Positions 2,511-16,092 of a stretch of DNA of 20,037 nt are shown one piece after another. Position 1 is the stretch's first letter. Each line of letters opens with the position of its first letter. Position numbers and translations under genes: made by a program. Source of the DNA: a virus; the IMG/VR virus record IMGVR_UViG_3300027810_000075, positions 1 through 20,037 of that record; one strand, 5' to 3'. The notes below the pieces were generated by a model, which ran no database searches, had not been told where the DNA came from, and worked only from the letters and a program-made list of their open reading frames with translations.

Positions 2511-2722
2511 TGGATGTTGTTGATTGGGCAAAATACATATACAAGAAACTTGAAGAGCGGGAGAAGGATCTTTCTGCCGCTCTTGCAAGCGGTGCTGTTA
2601 AAGACTGGGAACAGTACAAAATGTCGGTGGGAGAGATACGGGGACTCTCTTTCGCTCGTGAAGAAATCAAGTCCCTGCTGGAGAGAACCGTAGACGATGT
2701 CGAAGACCTTATATCTTCCTGA
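2510..2722 (+). CDS. Small helical phage protein of unknown function
   Basis: This 70-residue, charged and probably all-helical protein has the sequence features DWAKYIYKKLEEREKD and GEIRGLSFAREEIK. It starts by TAATG overlap with the HiPIP-like gene and ends 26 bases inside the co-chaperonin gene. Marine phages commonly have a gene of this size and pattern (a helix with ALASGAVKDWEQY, then GEIRGL) next to portal or head genes; its function is not known to me. The location suggests a head-assembly accessory role, which is inference. Confidence 0.75.
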   Translation: MDVVDWAKYIYKKLEEREKDLSAALASGAVKDWEQYKMSVGEIRGLSFAREEIKSLLERTVDDVEDLISS

Positions 2723-3185
2723 TCACGTTGCGCAGAAAATGAAGAAGGAGAAGGTTACTGCAAAAGCAGAGCCTGAAGCTTTGGATAGCGCATACGTTGA
2801 CGCTAATGAGCGGGTGCTAGACCCCTCCCTTTTAGACAAACCGCTACTCGAAAGACTTCCGCAGCCGACAGGTTGGCGGGTTTTAGTTATGCCGTACCAA
2901 GGCAAGGCTAAAACAGCGAGTGGTTTGTATATCCCTGATGAAGTTCGAGAGCGAGAGTCGGTAGCCACGGTTGTGGCGTACGTGATGAAGCTTGGACCAC
3001 TAGCTTACAAAGACCCTGACAAGTTCGGGGCAGATGGTGAGCCGTGGTGTAAAGAAGGTCAGTGGGTTTGCATTGGTCGTTACTCAGGTTCCAGATTCAA
3101 AATTGATGGCGGGGAGGTTCGTATCATCAATGATGACGAGGTTATCGCCACTATTATGGAACCCGATGATGTTAAACATATTTAA
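2697..3185 (+). CDS. GroES-like co-chaperonin (Cpn10 family)
   Basis: This 162-residue protein has a GroES-fold domain at about residues 53-154. LPQPTGWRVLVMPY matches the first strand, KTASGLYIPDE matches the mobile loop that docks on GroEL, and GRYSGSRFKIDG-x2-VRIINDDEVIA matches the C-terminal strands (host GroES has FGKYAG-x-KIDGEE). It has about 50 extra N-terminal residues compared with bacterial GroES (about 97 residues). It probably forms a ring that replaces host GroES on host GroEL and tunes it for folding the capsid protein, as T4 gp31 does. The scaffold and capsid genes follow directly. The start at 2697 has GGAGAG upstream and overlaps the previous gene; the ATG at 2739 has no good ribosome site. 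Confidence 0.88.
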   Translation: MSKTLYLPDHVAQKMKKEKVTAKAEPEALDSAYVDANERVLDPSLLDKPLLERLPQPTGWRVLVMPYQGKAKTASGLYIPDEVRERESVATVVAYVMKLGPLAYKDPDKFGADGEPWCKEGQWVCIGRYSGSRFKIDGGEVRIINDDEVIATIMEPDDVKHI

Positions 3186-5198: not shown

Positions 5199-6113
5199 AT
5201 GGCTATTTCACGCGCACAACTGGCTAAAGAGCTAGAACCAGGCCTAAACGCCTTGTTTGGTATGGAGTACAACAAGTACGAAAACCAACACGCCGAAATC
5301 TTTACAACAGAGTCTTCCGATCGAGCATTCGAAGAAGAAGTTATGTTGGCCGGGTTTGGCGCAGCACCAACTAAGTCGGAAGGTTCTTCCGTCAACTTTG
5401 ACGACGCTAACGAAGCATACACTGCTCGTTACAACCACGAAACTGTGGCGTTGGCATTCTCAATTACTGAGGAAGCTATCGAAGACAATCTCTATGATCG
5501 TCTTGGTTCACGTTACACTCGTGCGTTGGCTCGTTCAATGGCACACACGAAGCAGGTTAAAGCGGCTTCAGTGCTTAACAACGCCTTTGCTGGCGGTGCT
5601 ACAGCTGGTGGTGACGGCGTTGCTCTTTGTGCAACAACCCACCCACTGACAAACGGCGGCACATTCGCAAACACTCCAGCAGTAGCTGCTGATTTGAACG
5701 AAACTTCTTTGGAAGACGCTCTTATCAACATCGCTGGCTTTGTTGACGAACGTGGCTTGAAGGTCGCCCTGCGCGGCACCAAGTTGGTCATCCCGCGTCA
5801 ACTGCAATTCGTTGCAGAACGCTTGATGGTTTCAAACTTGCGTGTTGGCACAGCCGACAACGACACGAACGCTCTACGCTCAATGGGTATGTTGCCTGAT
5901 GGTTATGCCGTCAACGACTTCCTCACTGATCCAGATGCGTTCTTCGTGTTGACAGATGCTCCTCGTGGTATGATTCACTTTGAGCGCACACCACTCTCCA
6001 CCAACATGGAAGGTGATTTCGACACGGGTAACATGCGCTTCAAGGCGCGTGAGCGTTACAGCTTCGGCTTCTCCGACCCACGTTGTATCTTCGGTTCTGC
6101 AGGGGCGGCGTAA
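5199..6113 (+). CDS. Major capsid protein (Mu gpT-like, HK97 fold)
   Basis: This 304-residue coat protein begins MAISRAQLAKELEPGLNALF. It has TTESSDRAFEEEVMLAGFG, the central helix region FSITEEAIEDNLYDRLGSRY followed by TRALARSMAHTKQVKAA, and a C-terminal block (KARERYSFGFSDPR). This pattern matches Mu-like major head subunits (gpT family) seen in many marine phages, which have the HK97 fold. The length fits a mature-size coat with no long N-terminal delta domain, consistent with a separate scaffold gene upstream. It follows a perfect Shine-Dalgarno and is closed by a strong terminator at 6136-6170, so it is the last gene of its transcription unit and is probably the most expressed. Confidence 0.88.
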   Translation: MAISRAQLAKELEPGLNALFGMEYNKYENQHAEIFTTESSDRAFEEEVMLAGFGAAPTKSEGSSVNFDDANEAYTARYNHETVALAFSITEEAIEDNLYDRLGSRYTRALARSMAHTKQVKAASVLNNAFAGGATAGGDGVALCATTHPLTNGGTFANTPAVAADLNETSLEDALINIAGFVDERGLKVALRGTKLVIPRQLQFVAERLMVSNLRVGTADNDTNALRSMGMLPDGYAVNDFLTDPDAFFVLTDAPRGMIHFERTPLSTNMEGDFDTGNMRFKARERYSFGFSDPRCIFGSAGAA

Positions 6114-10115: not shown

Positions 10116-10460
10116 ATGGCTAGGGTTTTTGATCGGGTAAAGGAAACTAGCACAAGCACTGGTACAGGGGACATTACCCTGTCGGGTGCTGATGTGGGCT
10201 TTCAAGCTTTTTCTGGTGTCCTTTCTGTGGGCGACCAGACCTTTTACACGATTGAAGACGACACAGGAGAGTACGAGGTAGGCTTGGGGACATACTCCGC
10301 GGTGGACACCTTGACTCGTACTGAGGTCTACGACAGTTCAAACAGCAACTCTTTGGTGAACTTTATTGCAGGTTCTAAGAGAGTTTTTATAACGTATCCG
10401 GCTTTGCGCTCGGTTACAGATCAACAGGCGGTTGCTTTCGCAGTCGCGCTTGGGGGATAG
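10116..10460 (+). CDS. Small tail/virion protein with fibre-like N-terminal domain
   Basis: This 114-residue protein begins MARVFDRVKETSTSTGTGDI and contains FQAFSGVLSVGDQTFYTIED, YEVGLGTYSAVDTLTRTEVY and SKRVFITYPALRS. This VKE-TSTSTGTG-I-L-G...GDxxxY-I-ExD..EVG-GTY....LxRxxVxxSS pattern occurs in phage tail fibres and short stand-alone virion proteins. It directly abuts the previous stop with no gap, and ends two bases before the giant gene. It may work as a fibre-attachment or trimming component; that is inference. Confidence 0.75.
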   Translation: MARVFDRVKETSTSTGTGDITLSGADVGFQAFSGVLSVGDQTFYTIEDDTGEYEVGLGTYSAVDTLTRTEVYDSSNSNSLVNFIAGSKRVFITYPALRSVTDQQAVAFAVALGG

Positions 10461-10461
10461 A

Positions 10462-13400
10462 ATGGCTAAACATCTTGTTTTTGACTACACTTTTGATGCA
10501 TCGGCTAAGACTATCACCCTAGACGGGGTTTACTCTCAAAAGAGAATGTTGCTGATTACAAATCAGAACAACAACGAAATCATCTTTTCCTTTAATGACG
10601 CATCAAAAGGACTGTCGGACATTGCGTTTGACTATACCTCTTACACCACCACACTGACGTTGACCTATGACACTACGTCGATGGCAGACACGGATCCTTT
10701 GCAGATTTTTGTAGAGAACGACAATCAGTCATTTAAGCCTGACAGCACGTTTGTTGACGCAGTATCCAAGTTCCGCGTATCCAACCCAGAGAATTTGATC
10801 GACACTGATTTTGAGTACGGCCTGCAGTCTACAAAGTGGGAGACTCTCGAGCTAACAAAAAACATCCCTACGTTCTTTTCCCGTAACGGGGACCAAGATC
10901 TTGGGATTTCTTCCATTGTTGCTGGAGCCAATAGCAACGTAATTACTGTCACCACTTCTGAAGATCACGGTCTTCAAAGTGGGTCACCTATTATTGTAGT
11001 TGGGACTACGTTTATTTCTGCAGATGGTGGTTTTGTTGTAGACGGCACACCGACCACAGATACTTTTACATACAGAGCAAAGTCTCGGCAGACTATCACA
11101 GGCAGCATTCAAGAAACGTACACTCAGTTATTTGCAGGATCTGTTTACACAGGTACGGAGTTTTCTCTCTCTAACTTGTCGAGCATTACATCGGATGGTG
11201 CTGCCCAAAGTACACTGTCTGTGAACACTGAGTACCCGACTAACTTTACAAACGGCACTAGCGTCACGCTGGCGAACACTTTTGCTAAAGCTTCGCTGTT
11301 CTTTAACACGGATAACGTGGAGCCGGAAAACAGGGGCGTAGTTAACCAGAGCGGAACTGCGGCCACGGCGTCAGGATTAACAGGCTTCCCTATGACTGCG
11401 GTTAACGCGGTGGACTTTGAGCCTGATTATCCCCCTGGATTATCTACAGGCACTACCCCCCCTTTCTTTTTTGAGGAGGGAGACTACACAATTAATACCA
11501 GCCTGGACACAGTGACTTTTAATGAACCTCACGGTTTCGCTAGTTCAGATAGTGTCGTTTATGTGTGCGACACTGATACGAACACGCCGATTGGTGGACT
11601 AATCGCGAATACGGGGTATTACGTAACGAGAATAAGTGACACGGTTCTTAGATTTCAGAGGTTGAGGTCAAACTCATCCTTTTACAAAATTCCGCTTAAC
11701 AATACTGGCGGGGTAAGTGGTGGTCAGACACGTTCGGCGCTTATTAAATCTTGGGTTGCTAACATAGCAAACTCCGCCCGAATTCGACTTGTAACTGGAG
11801 TGAACTCATTATTCCCAGTTAGCACTAGTCAAGCAACCAATCGTTTTATAACTTTTAAAGCTCACAATTATGTCTACAGTGCCTCTGCCATGCCCAGACA
11901 ACTGGGGCCGTTTGATGCCCCGCAAGAGTTCTACGGGAAACACCAAAGCGCCACTTACTTTGGTGTTTACGGCAGCCCAACCTCTACCACCCTTATTAAC
12001 GCCACGGGGCTTGTTAATCATCATATTATTCCGATTAACGCTTCTCTTTCTGAAATTAAAAACTCTTTTCTTATACCAAACCACGGTTTAGCTACCGGGG
12101 GCACCGTTACTGTAACAGCGACAACAGGCACTCTTCCTGCCGCGTTAACCTCGGGTGACAGCTACACCGTTAACCGAGGTTCCCAGGATCGTTTTTCCCT
12201 TAGAGACCCTCAAGCTTCAGGAGCAGACATAGATTTCACGGACCTTGGATCTACGGACCTTGTGTACAATGTAGTTGGCAACGCTAAATTTGCACTTGGT
12301 GACACAATAACGATTGCCGGAGTAGAGGTTTCTGAAGGTTATCCTGTAACTTATGATAGTAACGGTGGGACCGCCATCGGTGGATTAACCTCGGGCACGG
12401 AATACTACGTTGCAAGGAAGCAGGGAGACTCGTTTAATCTTGCAACTACCCCCAACTACATCACCAGTACACAATATGTATCTAGCCAAAATATCGGCTC
12501 ATCATCGGCGGCTTACTTTATCTTTAGAACTAATCACGGCTTTCAGACAGGGCAGGCTGTCCAGTACGTTGCTGGTACGCCAAAGGCTCCTCTGCAGAGC
12601 GGCGAAGTTTATTATGTTCATAGAGTCTCATCTTCGCTCTTCACACTTTACTATACATCTGCCGATGCCATAGCTGATACAACTGCAAACCGAATTAATA
12701 TTATCTCAGACCCTTCGAACACTACAACCGCAATATTTTATGGAACATCTATTATAGACCTTTCAAGTGTTCCGAGCCCTGCTGAGAATCAAATACTAAT
12801 AGCGGACGCTATTGGCGCAGCGGATGGGGTGTACGAGGTTTCAGGGACTTCTGCGGATCAACTTTCGTTTACATTAGCTTCGGAATCCCTTGTGGATTCT
12901 CGGACGTTTGTGAAAGTAAGCCAAGACTCTTTCACGGCGGCATTAGATGCGTTCTATGTTGTTGACCATGGGTTTGTTACTGGAGAATCGGCTGTGTACA
13001 CCGAAAGTTCAGCAACTGGGCAAGTTGGGATTATCGGGCTTACTAGTGGTACCACCTACTTTTTGATCGCTTCGAGCAAAGATTTTTTCCAAGTTGCTTC
13101 AACTCAAGAAAACGCTTTGGCGGGAACGGCTATTAGTCTTACAAACACAGGTATTACCAATGCCGCTCGGACTGGTACTTTTAGCTTGGACTCAACCACT
13201 ATTGCGGGTTCAGTTTCCGCACTGGGTTCAGTTTCCTATGAAGCAAGCAGCACCGTAATATCTGGAGAAGGTACGACCTTCACGTCTTATTTCAACTCTG
13301 GAGACAAGATACTTATAAATGTCCCACACGCGGTAAGCAGCACGGCCATCACGGCAGTTTCGGCAAGCCCTGACTATGTAATTACTGCGGCAAGCCACGG

Positions 13401-16092
13401 ATTGTCTGATGGCGACACGGTAACTATCACGGCCACGGGTACGCAGCCTTCAGGTACCGTGTCCACATACTTATATTTTGTTTACACCTCTGGTCTAACT
13501 ACCCCCGCGGACCAGTTCACCCTTGCTAATTCAGAAAACTTTGCCCTAACGGGAACCTCCCCCGTAAATGTAACAGACATCGGGGTTGGGGCTTCTGTAA
13601 ACTTTTTTGAAAACGTGGGTGCAACCATTGAACGCACTATTTCCTATGTAAATAGTGACACCCAGCTGTCGTTGACAGCTGCAATGCCCGCCACTGCTCA
13701 AACGGGTGTTCATTATTTCTTGCGGACTCAGGCACTACTGCGCTCTGACGGATTTGCTCTTCACAGACCCTATGACGGTGGTGTGGACCTTATACCTTCA
13801 AGCAACCCTGATAGCCGCATGATCAGGCAAACTCGGAAGTATTTCCGTTATCAGTCGGGTAAAGGGATTCAAGTTTCTTTCGCGGTTAACTTTAGCCCAA
13901 CAAGCGGGATTGATGCGTTTGCCTTTGCAGGCTCCGTTAACTCTTTGGCACAGGGAACAATTACTACACGGTTCCCACACCGTTTAACCCCAGGGTTAAA
14001 TATTGTGACTTCGGGATCAACAAACACGGATACAGACGCAATAGGCGTTTTCTTTTATGACGTTACGATAGGCGTAAGTGGCAGCGACGACGTGTTTCTT
14101 TTGGAGGGTGAACAGCCCGAGACCCCAATTACTATGTACGAAGGCCGAACATACAGGTTCGACCAATCGGATTCTACTAACGCTGGCTACACTCTTCGTT
14201 TTTCAACAACACAAGACGGCGACAATAACGGTGGTACACAGTACGCAACTGGAGTTACTGTGGTTGGAACGGCAGGTTCTGCTGGAGCGTATACCCAGAT
14301 TGTAGTCGCAACGGCGGCACCTGTTCTGTACACATATGTTAGCGGGACGGCGGCAGCGGGCTTTCAGGCTGACACGCCTGTTGATCCAAAGAATGGAACT
14401 GAAAACCTTTGGAACGCAACGATGCCTGTTCTTTCGGTTCTTGATGACTACAGATTTAAGGTTCAGCTACCTGGGATACCATCGGACGCTACCGCTCTAG
14501 GTGACGTTGAGTACTATGTCGACGGTTGGCAAAACAGTTCCCTCCGTTGCGGAATGTTTGACGATCAGAACGGGATATTCTTCGAGTACACGGGCTCAGT
14601 GCTTAACGCTTGTCGTAGAGATTCGGTCAAACAAATAAGCGGATTTGCCTCGGTCACGTTCCGTTCAGGGGTTGTAAACGGCAATGGGACTAAATTTACG
14701 TCACAACTTTCCGTTGGAGACTACGTCGTAATAAAAGGTCAGACCCATCAAGTTGTACGAATTAACAACGACACCAGCATGGCTATTTCGCCCACTTACG
14801 CAGGGGTTACTTTAGACAGTGTAATTATCTCTAAATCTAACACCGTTCGAGTTCCTCAAACGCAGTGGAACTTAGACGTATGCGATGGAACTGGACACAC
14901 GGGGTTCAAGCTAGACATCAATAAAATTCAGATGGCTTACCTTGACTACTCTTGGTACGGCGCAGGCAAGGTCCGCTTTGGTTTTAAAGACCAGAACGGC
15001 GACGTTCAGTATGTTCACCAGTTTGTTCACGGGAACTTCAAGACTGAAGCCTATATGCGGTCAGGCAACCTACCTGCTCGATATGAAATTGAAAACACAG
15101 GGGCACCGACGTATGTCCCGTCTCTTGCGCACTGGGGCACCTCAGTCATTATGGACGGAACATTTGACCCAGATAAAGCCTATGTGTTCAACGCTTCATC
15201 TAACAACGTAACTCTGACCCAAGCGTCTAGTTTAACCGTGGACGCCAAGGTTGATTACCTTGGTCAGTACTCCACCAACAGAAACTACAGCAGCATTGGG
15301 TACGCGATACTTTTAGACGCTCCGGAAGGAAACTTAAACTCTGTGGCGGCTGGCACACTTATTACAGGGGCTGGCCTGCCTTCAGGAACAGTAGCCAAGT
15401 TGCCGCTCAGTACCTTCGTTAACCCCTATCAGCCTTATTTGCCGGGGCTTGTTTCAAGGGAAGGTTTTGGGAATAACAAAAACACTGAAGAGGTTAGAAA
15501 CCTATTAGTTGTTGACCAACAGCCAACAGTGATTTCTGGCACGTCAACTCCGTATGTAATAGGGGATGCCGCGGTAGAGCAGGTTGTTACGGACCCTATC
15601 CCACTCATCAGCATCCGTCTTGCTCCAAGCGTTGACACAAGTACTCCAGGGTTCTTGGGGGAACGTGAAATTATTAACCGTATGCAGTTGATTCTTAACC
15701 AAACGTCAATCTTGAGCACCCACACGGCAGAGATTCAGTTGGTTCTTAACGCCCAGTTAAATACAAACGCTTGGCAACGTGTGAATAACCCGAGCCTCAG
15801 TCAGCTTTTGATTCACTCAAACGAAGACTTCCTAACTGGTGGGGCCAGTATTTACAACTTCCGAGCTTCAGGGGACACTGGCACAACAAACCGTGTTCAG
15901 CAGCTTACCTCCGAAAACCTTGCTGAAGTTGCGACCCTCGGTAACTCTATCTTAGGGGGCAATAATGTTTACCCTGATGGACCAGACGTTTTAACTGTTG
16001 TCGCGACCCTACAGGAAGACCCGTCAACGGTTTCAGCAACCAACCCCTTTGTTATTACAGGACGAATTAGTTGGTCTGAATCCCAAGCGTAA
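10462..16092 (+). CDS. Giant mosaic tail/adhesin structural protein (1,876 aa)
   Basis: The start at 10462 has GGGGGA upstream; an earlier in-frame start (10432) lies inside the previous gene. The N-terminal part has FRVSNPENLIDTDFEYGLQ followed by STKWETLELTKNIPTFFSR, a block I recall from cyanophage tail proteins. About eight beta modules follow, each opening with an HG-x3-G motif (near residues 169, 356, 540, 691, 835, 977, 1172) and often containing GLTSGTEYYV and F-x-L. Two G-x-GT-x-FTS-x2-x2-GD segments lie near 933 and 1404. A cupredoxin-like module (about 1215-1310) is followed by a C-terminal region with WYGAGKVRFGFKDQNG, AYMRSGNLPARYEIENTG and LAHWGTSVIMDG, also cyanophage-like. It is probably a trimeric tail-fibre or baseplate-type adhesin. 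Confidence 0.82.
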   Translation: MAKHLVFDYTFDASAKTITLDGVYSQKRMLLITNQNNNEIIFSFNDASKGLSDIAFDYTSYTTTLTLTYDTTSMADTDPLQIFVENDNQSFKPDSTFVDAVSKFRVSNPENLIDTDFEYGLQSTKWETLELTKNIPTFFSRNGDQDLGISSIVAGANSNVITVTTSEDHGLQSGSPIIVVGTTFISADGGFVVDGTPTTDTFTYRAKSRQTITGSIQETYTQLFAGSVYTGTEFSLSNLSSITSDGAAQSTLSVNTEYPTNFTNGTSVTLANTFAKASLFFNTDNVEPENRGVVNQSGTAATASGLTGFPMTAVNAVDFEPDYPPGLSTGTTPPFFFEEGDYTINTSLDTVTFNEPHGFASSDSVVYVCDTDTNTPIGGLIANTGYYVTRISDTVLRFQRLRSNSSFYKIPLNNTGGVSGGQTRSALIKSWVANIANSARIRLVTGVNSLFPVSTSQATNRFITFKAHNYVYSASAMPRQLGPFDAPQEFYGKHQSATYFGVYGSPTSTTLINATGLVNHHIIPINASLSEIKNSFLIPNHGLATGGTVTVTATTGTLPAALTSGDSYTVNRGSQDRFSLRDPQASGADIDFTDLGSTDLVYNVVGNAKFALGDTITIAGVEVSEGYPVTYDSNGGTAIGGLTSGTEYYVARKQGDSFNLATTPNYITSTQYVSSQNIGSSSAAYFIFRTNHGFQTGQAVQYVAGTPKAPLQSGEVYYVHRVSSSLFTLYYTSADAIADTTANRINIISDPSNTTTAIFYGTSIIDLSSVPSPAENQILIADAIGAADGVYEVSGTSADQLSFTLASESLVDSRTFVKVSQDSFTAALDAFYVVDHGFVTGESAVYTESSATGQVGIIGLTSGTTYFLIASSKDFFQVASTQENALAGTAISLTNTGITNAARTGTFSLDSTTIAGSVSALGSVSYEASSTVISGEGTTFTSYFNSGDKILINVPHAVSSTAITAVSASPDYVITAASHGLSDGDTVTITATGTQPSGTVSTYLYFVYTSGLTTPADQFTLANSENFALTGTSPVNVTDIGVGASVNFFENVGATIERTISYVNSDTQLSLTAAMPATAQTGVHYFLRTQALLRSDGFALHRPYDGGVDLIPSSNPDSRMIRQTRKYFRYQSGKGIQVSFAVNFSPTSGIDAFAFAGSVNSLAQGTITTRFPHRLTPGLNIVTSGSTNTDTDAIGVFFYDVTIGVSGSDDVFLLEGEQPETPITMYEGRTYRFDQSDSTNAGYTLRFSTTQDGDNNGGTQYATGVTVVGTAGSAGAYTQIVVATAAPVLYTYVSGTAAAGFQADTPVDPKNGTENLWNATMPVLSVLDDYRFKVQLPGIPSDATALGDVEYYVDGWQNSSLRCGMFDDQNGIFFEYTGSVLNACRRDSVKQISGFASVTFRSGVVNGNGTKFTSQLSVGDYVVIKGQTHQVVRINNDTSMAISPTYAGVTLDSVIISKSNTVRVPQTQWNLDVCDGTGHTGFKLDINKIQMAYLDYSWYGAGKVRFGFKDQNGDVQYVHQFVHGNFKTEAYMRSGNLPARYEIENTGAPTYVPSLAHWGTSVIMDGTFDPDKAYVFNASSNNVTLTQASSLTVDAKVDYLGQYSTNRNYSSIGYAILLDAPEGNLNSVAAGTLITGAGLPSGTVAKLPLSTFVNPYQPYLPGLVSREGFGNNKNTEEVRNLLVVDQQPTVISGTSTPYVIGDAAVEQVVTDPIPLISIRLAPSVDTSTPGFLGEREIINRMQLILNQTSILSTHTAEIQLVLNAQLNTNAWQRVNNPSLSQLLIHSNEDFLTGGASIYNFRASGDTGTTNRVQQLTSENLAEVATLGNSILGGNNVYPDGPDVLTVVATLQEDPSTVSATNPFVITGRISWSESQA
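14104..14391 (+). other. Cupredoxin-like module inside the giant protein, metal ligands absent
   Basis: Residues about 1215-1310 of the giant protein contain YEGRTYRFDQSDSTNAGYTL then RFSTTQDGDNNGGTQYATGV, with GTAGSAGAYTQIVV and VLYTYVSGTAAAGF. I recall the same module in other marine phage proteins with ligand-like residues GHPLRFS and YYYC-x2-HSGM. Here the His is Y1243, the Cys is V1293 and no His or Met follows, so the visible Cu-type ligands are lost. Confidence 0.6.

Follow-up and report, generated by a model that had tools for sequence, protein, structure and literature searches.

The locus and its giant virion protein

The DNA analysed here, called the window below, is a 20,037-base fragment from a linear virus record, and its phage is probably a podovirus. 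The major capsid protein shares 71% identity with the capsid protein of Pelagibacter phage HTVC023P and 67% with its counterparts in phage DSL-LC04 and phage 023Pt_psg01. The gene order of GroES, capsid and adaptor-like genes is also similar to that in the records of these three phages. The GroES-like co-chaperonin gene lies upstream of the capsid gene and is found in 023Pt_psg01 and DSL-LC04 as well.

The module studied here lies in frame within an open reading frame of 1,886 codons (10432-16092), which is listed from a TTG at 10432. The true start is more likely the ATG at 10462, which is preceded by GGGGG (Table 1). In profile searches, the whole giant protein matched phrog_5838 (virion structural protein, E 3.2e-165) and the module alone matched phrog_693 (tail fibre, 1.2e-17). 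Both labels are general, and neither family carries a cupredoxin annotation. No second copy of the module was detectable elsewhere in the window.

Table 1. Positions in the window of the genes, the module, its ligand columns and the surrounding host domain.
Feature	Position	Strand	Description and basis
GroES-like co-chaperonin gene	2697..3185		phrog_3188
Major capsid protein	5199..6113		
Giant virion structural protein gene	10462..16092	+	~1,876 aa; phrog_5838 virion structural protein
Left half of small host domain, module inserted after it	13960..14043	+	ITTRFPHRLTPGLNIVTSGSTN...; alignment with module-less L083, L086 and MW202722
Complete cupredoxin-like module, ligand-less	14044..14397	+	118 aa, eight beta strands; AlphaFold2 and alignment
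Ligand 1 column, Tyr replaces His (GHPLRFS in relatives)	14188..14190	+	alignment
Ligand 2 column, Val replaces Cys (YYYC)	14338..14340	+	alignment
Ligand 3 column, Thr replaces His (C-x2-H)	14347..14349	+	alignment
Ligand 4 column, Ala replaces Met (H-x2-M)	14356..14358	+	alignment
Right half of host domain	14398..14474	+	TENLWNATMPVLSVLDDYRFKVQLP; alignment with module-less L083, L086 and MW202722

The module and its ligand columns

Positions 14104-14391 translate in frame to EGEQPETPITMYEGRTYRFDQSDSTNAGYTLRFSTTQDGDNNGGTQYATGVTVVGTAGSAGAYTQIVVATAAPVLYTYVSGTAAAGFQADTPVDPK. The module extends about 20 residues further towards the N-terminus, where the first beta strand, GVFFYDVTIG, is located. 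An earlier sequence-only reading had described a 95-residue module that keeps the scaffold of a metal-binding family, and both the translation and the alignment with relatives agree with this. The relatives do show GHPLRFS and YYYC-x2-HSGM at the aligned positions, and the replacements of His by Tyr and of Cys by Val could be placed at exact codons. The same reading took the second His and the Met to be absent. These ligands are indeed gone, but they were substituted by Thr and Ala rather than deleted. The window module therefore has Tyr, Val, Thr and Ala where the ligand set of a type 1 (blue) copper site has His, Cys, His and Met in canonical positions.

Three other causes of this difference were rejected. 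Sequencing error does not account for concerted codon changes in three separate loops, and a frameshift or pseudogene is at odds with an open reading frame under purifying selection. Misalignment of the ligand columns was discarded because the alignment with three intact relatives (L002, L082 and L120) is ungapped across 87 residues.

Relation to cupredoxins

When the window module was searched as a single sequence, neither Pfam nor the PDB gave a useful match or a cupredoxin match, and a first profile of 14 rows that included the window returned only noise from the PDB. A broader profile of intact copies was required. With this profile, plastocyanins were the top PDB matches (1fa4, E 0.0085), and HMMER aligned the H, C, H and M of the phage copies to the copper ligands. 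In hhalign, the family profile matched five cellular plastocyanin-like proteins, taken from the genomes behind the loci, with 96.7% probability; this match is strengthened by one of the five rows (L303), which is intermediate between the phage modules and Copper-bind. Pfam Copper-bind (PF00127) matched five members of the family out of 24, with E-values no higher than 1. One divergent phage copy, at 23.7 bits, exceeded the curated cut-off of 21.2 bits; most phage copies score under this threshold, and the window has no PF00127 match and does not belong to that family by its cut-off.

The predicted structures point to the same fold. The AlphaFold model of the intact L120 module (pLDDT 94.9) has PDB neighbours that are almost all blue-copper proteins, namely plastocyanin, pseudoazurin, rusticyanin, AcoP and multicopper oxidases (laccases). 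The Foldseek similarity to solved cupredoxins is modest, with E ~2e-3 and TM 0.5-0.57 for the small ones. The AlphaFold2 model of the window module (pLDDT 92.2, pTM 0.85) is a predicted eight-stranded sandwich. Its best PDB match is SO1698 (3nji), followed by multicopper oxidases and copper nitrite reductases. Among viral models, it superposes on a virion protein of S-TIM5 (TM 0.89), a cultured cyanophage with an intact module, and on structural proteins of further cyanophages, at TM values reaching 0.9. Judged from the predicted models and their PDB neighbours, the module probably has the seven- to eight-stranded Greek-key beta sandwich of cupredoxins. At the level of profiles, the family is related to known cupredoxins, whereas the window copy alone is not matched to them. 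The family is a cupredoxin family, and the two outcomes that would have spoken against the sequence-only reading, an unrelated fold and ligand positions that do not correspond, did not occur: profile, hhalign and models agree on the fold, and the positions match those of the intact phage copies as well as the His, Cys, His and Met of plastocyanin.

The intact phage copies share with plastocyanin, amicyanin and pseudoazurin (PF00127) the fold and the order and alignment of the four ligands, and with amicyanin the C-x2-H-x2-M spacing. Plastocyanin-type proteins are small electron carriers, whereas the phage modules are built into large virion proteins, and all four ligands of the plastocyanin type are missing from the window copy.

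L303, from a single-cell Bacteroidetes genome, is a cellular Copper-bind protein with SGHPFYIKT...YYYQCSLHNGMYGTI that bridges plastocyanin-type proteins and the phage modules. A cellular protein of this kind is a possible source of the phage domain, to judge from sequence.

Orthologues with and without the copper site

The giant proteins L002, L082 and L120 carry the module at the insertion point seen in the window. All have the complete ligand set (HCHM), with GHPLRFS and a ligand loop of YAYCTNHSGM, YTYCSNHSGM or YTYCSVHSNM. In L083, L084, L086, L087, L088 and the podovirus record MW202722, the same host domain occurs without the module (for example SEATGSSATAFNGTRTVSSIVDDY). Because intact and empty-site orthologues share one site, the module must be a loop inserted into a beta domain of the PHRL type. 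The window carries the disarmed orthologue of the intact copies. In a tree built with the ligand columns left out, the window groups with L002, L082 and L120 with an SH-aLRT of 88, which is below the starred level; this tree is built on few columns and leaves many forks open. Of 60 positions invariant in these three relatives, the window has changed 14, comprising all four ligands and 10 of the 56 others (Fisher p = 0.002). The DGTH loop was changed together with the ligands and reads DGDNN in the window.

In more distant orthologues (L090-L100), an intact module is found elsewhere, on the N-terminal side, at residues ~330-450 of the giant protein. It therefore seems that the giant protein acquired the domain at least twice.

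Ligand states across the family

A scan of IMG/VR with the window module found 566 related stretches of viral contigs, of which the best 80 were kept. A second scan with a 14-row alignment added 80 loci from viruses and 66 from assemblies of bacteria or archaea; many of the latter are MAGs or single-cell genomes that possibly contain phage DNA. The DNA probes of these two scans contained no ligand residues, so the sample was not selected for ligands. The probes of a later scan, for which the ligand-less protein of cyanophage PSS2 was the query (12 loci), included the site loop of that protein. A profile search of the scanned loci and annotated phage records yielded 252 distinct copies with a length of 70 residues or more.

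The sequence-only reading had proposed counting intact and ligand-less copies. All four ligands were kept in 229 of the 252 copies, three in 1, two in 0, one in 6 and none in 16, so that 22 copies keep one or none. If the four columns were independent, the expected numbers would be 179, 64, 9, 0.5 and 0.01, a comparison that is descriptive since near-copies are not independent. There is a clear gap between the "all" and "none" states. The sole copy with three ligands (HCHQ; L231, a SAR86 MAG, ORF residues 825-918) has Gln in place of the axial Met, and Gln is the axial ligand of stellacyanin. Among 24-25 diverse intact copies, only the Cys column and the two ligand His columns are invariant; the Met column and that of the Pro following the ligand 1 His are nearly so. 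The His of the DGTH loop is present in 182 of 230 intact copies and is lost in the window.

Recurrent loss in other lineages

On the tree, at least eight changes between the intact and lost states are needed, three of which are forced by starred branches alone; shuffles averaged 20.6. The clearest independent loss is seen in the C-terminal module of L157, which is disarmed, compared with that of L150, which is intact (His to Asn, Cys to Ser and His to Gln). The two modules differ by 52 synonymous and 13 nonsynonymous changes (dN/dS ~0.02), and the ligand loss in L157 is recent as judged by sequence comparison. Ligands have also been lost in the stand-alone protein of cyanophage PSS2, in giant-protein relatives of freshwater type (L108, L109, L111, L114 and L115) and in giant ORFs of Flavobacteriaceae assemblies. 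In T4-like cyanophages, the baseplate wedge initiator gp7 has one HCHM module and one ligand-less module per protein. Such two-module records (L288-L294) come from P-HM2, S-CAM22, P-RSM4, P-SSM4, MED4-213, S-IOM18 and S-MbCM25; the ligand columns of the disarmed copy are less surely aligned because of an insertion.

The presence of the metal site thus varies between lineages and even between two domains of one gp7, which fits the suggestion of lineage-specific metal binding as far as the site itself is concerned. The other option offered by the sequence-only reading, recycling of the fold without its metal site, fits the same picture. Of this option, the loss of the site from a retained fold holds, and the plain structural or binding role is one that we infer.

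Explanations for the ligand-less module

Our preferred explanation, to which we give a probability of roughly 0.7, is that the module is a reusable cupredoxin-fold domain whose copper site was lost in place in the window, with the scaffold under selection as a metal-free structural or surface-binding unit. Marine phages build this beta-sandwich into tail, tail-fibre and baseplate proteins, and in most copies the set His, Cys-x2-His-x2-Met would form a type 1-like copper site. The module of the window, inserted as a loop in a small beta domain of the giant virion protein, has lost this set by substitution, most likely in place, with the scaffold under purifying selection. Its present job on the virion is most likely structural or surface-binding and metal-free, and the former copper loops would be available as an ordinary contact surface. 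Loss of the ligands as a set from a constrained scaffold is expected if the domain has its own job and the metal is optional; this job may be that of a spacer, decoration or contact surface. Each intact module most likely takes up a single copper ion, in a type 1-like site located where the loops end its sandwich, and this copper might act in domain stabilisation, cell-surface redox chemistry or receptor binding. A bolder claim is that the tails and baseplates of many marine phages contain genuine type 1 copper centres, with more than a few in each virion, and that phages have repeatedly switched off the centre but kept the domain. We regard this as a tentative proposal, somewhat more likely to be wrong than right.

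The intact His, Cys, His and Met could instead be a structural feature or a site for another metal, in which case losing them would alter the packing without costing a copper function. Searches of the open-licence literature turned up no account of virions with blue copper, and the frequent DGTH His, also lost in the window, indicates that conserved polar loops need not be ligands. This alternative is nevertheless unlikely, since all four residues align with those of plastocyanin at amicyanin-like spacing, the ligand columns are the most conserved even when copies of ~20% identity are included, the four ligands vanish together across copies, and the one three-ligand copy has exchanged Met for the axial residue of stellacyanin.

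Another origin to be considered is import of the module, or of its site loops, from an old metal-free subfamily. Cyanophage PSS2 has a stand-alone ligand-less module of 112 aa (ACT65642.1, L270:3067-3405), which adjoins the tape measure gene downstream: YYYAVGTAAMGG. The window and PSS2 have the unusual residues DGxNNxGxxYATGV and GTAA in common, as import would predict. The tree without ligand columns, however, places the window with L002, L082 and L120 and not with PSS2. The insertion point is the same as in these three relatives, and all four have YEGRTY, TPxDP and a GF that follows the Met column. Import is thus improbable, and the likeness to PSS2 in DGxNN, YATGV and GTAA is probably convergence. 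Least probable is that the window copy is a functionless, decaying remnant tolerated as a loop insertion. The orthologues wholly without the module indicate that the giant protein does not require it. But the window module has no stop or frameshift and a confidently predicted fold, and its core is 61-65% identical to L002 and L082, not below the flanking host domain (59-61%). Its dN/dS against L082 and L120 is well under 1, at 0.16-0.25, or 0.12-0.16 without the site codons, with dS near saturation. Both the identity of the scaffold and the low dN/dS speak against decay.

Known parallels and significance

Ligand-less cupredoxins are known in eukaryotes, where early nodulin-like proteins and ephrin ectodomains keep the fold and use it for structure or binding. 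As in the window, the fold is kept and the copper ligands are lost, so this kind of change is already known. The eukaryotic proteins belong to another lineage and context, whereas the phages have intact and disarmed copies at the same site of orthologous proteins. A phage family of plastocyanin-like domains and its repeated, site-matched disarming appear to be new; no relevant paper on cupredoxin or plastocyanin domains in phages, tail fibres, baseplates or virions was found in the open-licence literature.

Iron is present in phage tails through the HxH metal-binding motifs of the tail fibres of T4 (gp37) and Alteromonas phage R22Y (PMC11705849). These motifs likewise put metal-coordinating residues on adsorption proteins, including those of marine phages, but they hold octahedral iron by paired fibre histidines rather than in a single-domain cupredoxin site, and no sequence relation is claimed.

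The plastocyanin-like domains of marine phage virions are an apparently undescribed family, and they include natural matched pairs with and without metal ligands: the window against L120, L002 and L082 at the same site of orthologues, the close homologues L157 and L150, and the two copies within single baseplate proteins of cultured cyanophages. With such pairs, the presence and role of copper in phage particles can be tested directly. Our data suggest a building block that is reused with the metal site as an optional, dispensable part. If virions do hold genuine copper centres, copper occupancy would be an evolvable trait that could matter for stability, for receptor binding or for redox reactions at the envelope of the host.

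The C-terminus of gp9 of T4-like cyanophages also has an intact module, HPFRxQS...YYQCTxHxxMxGTI, in the five records covering it.
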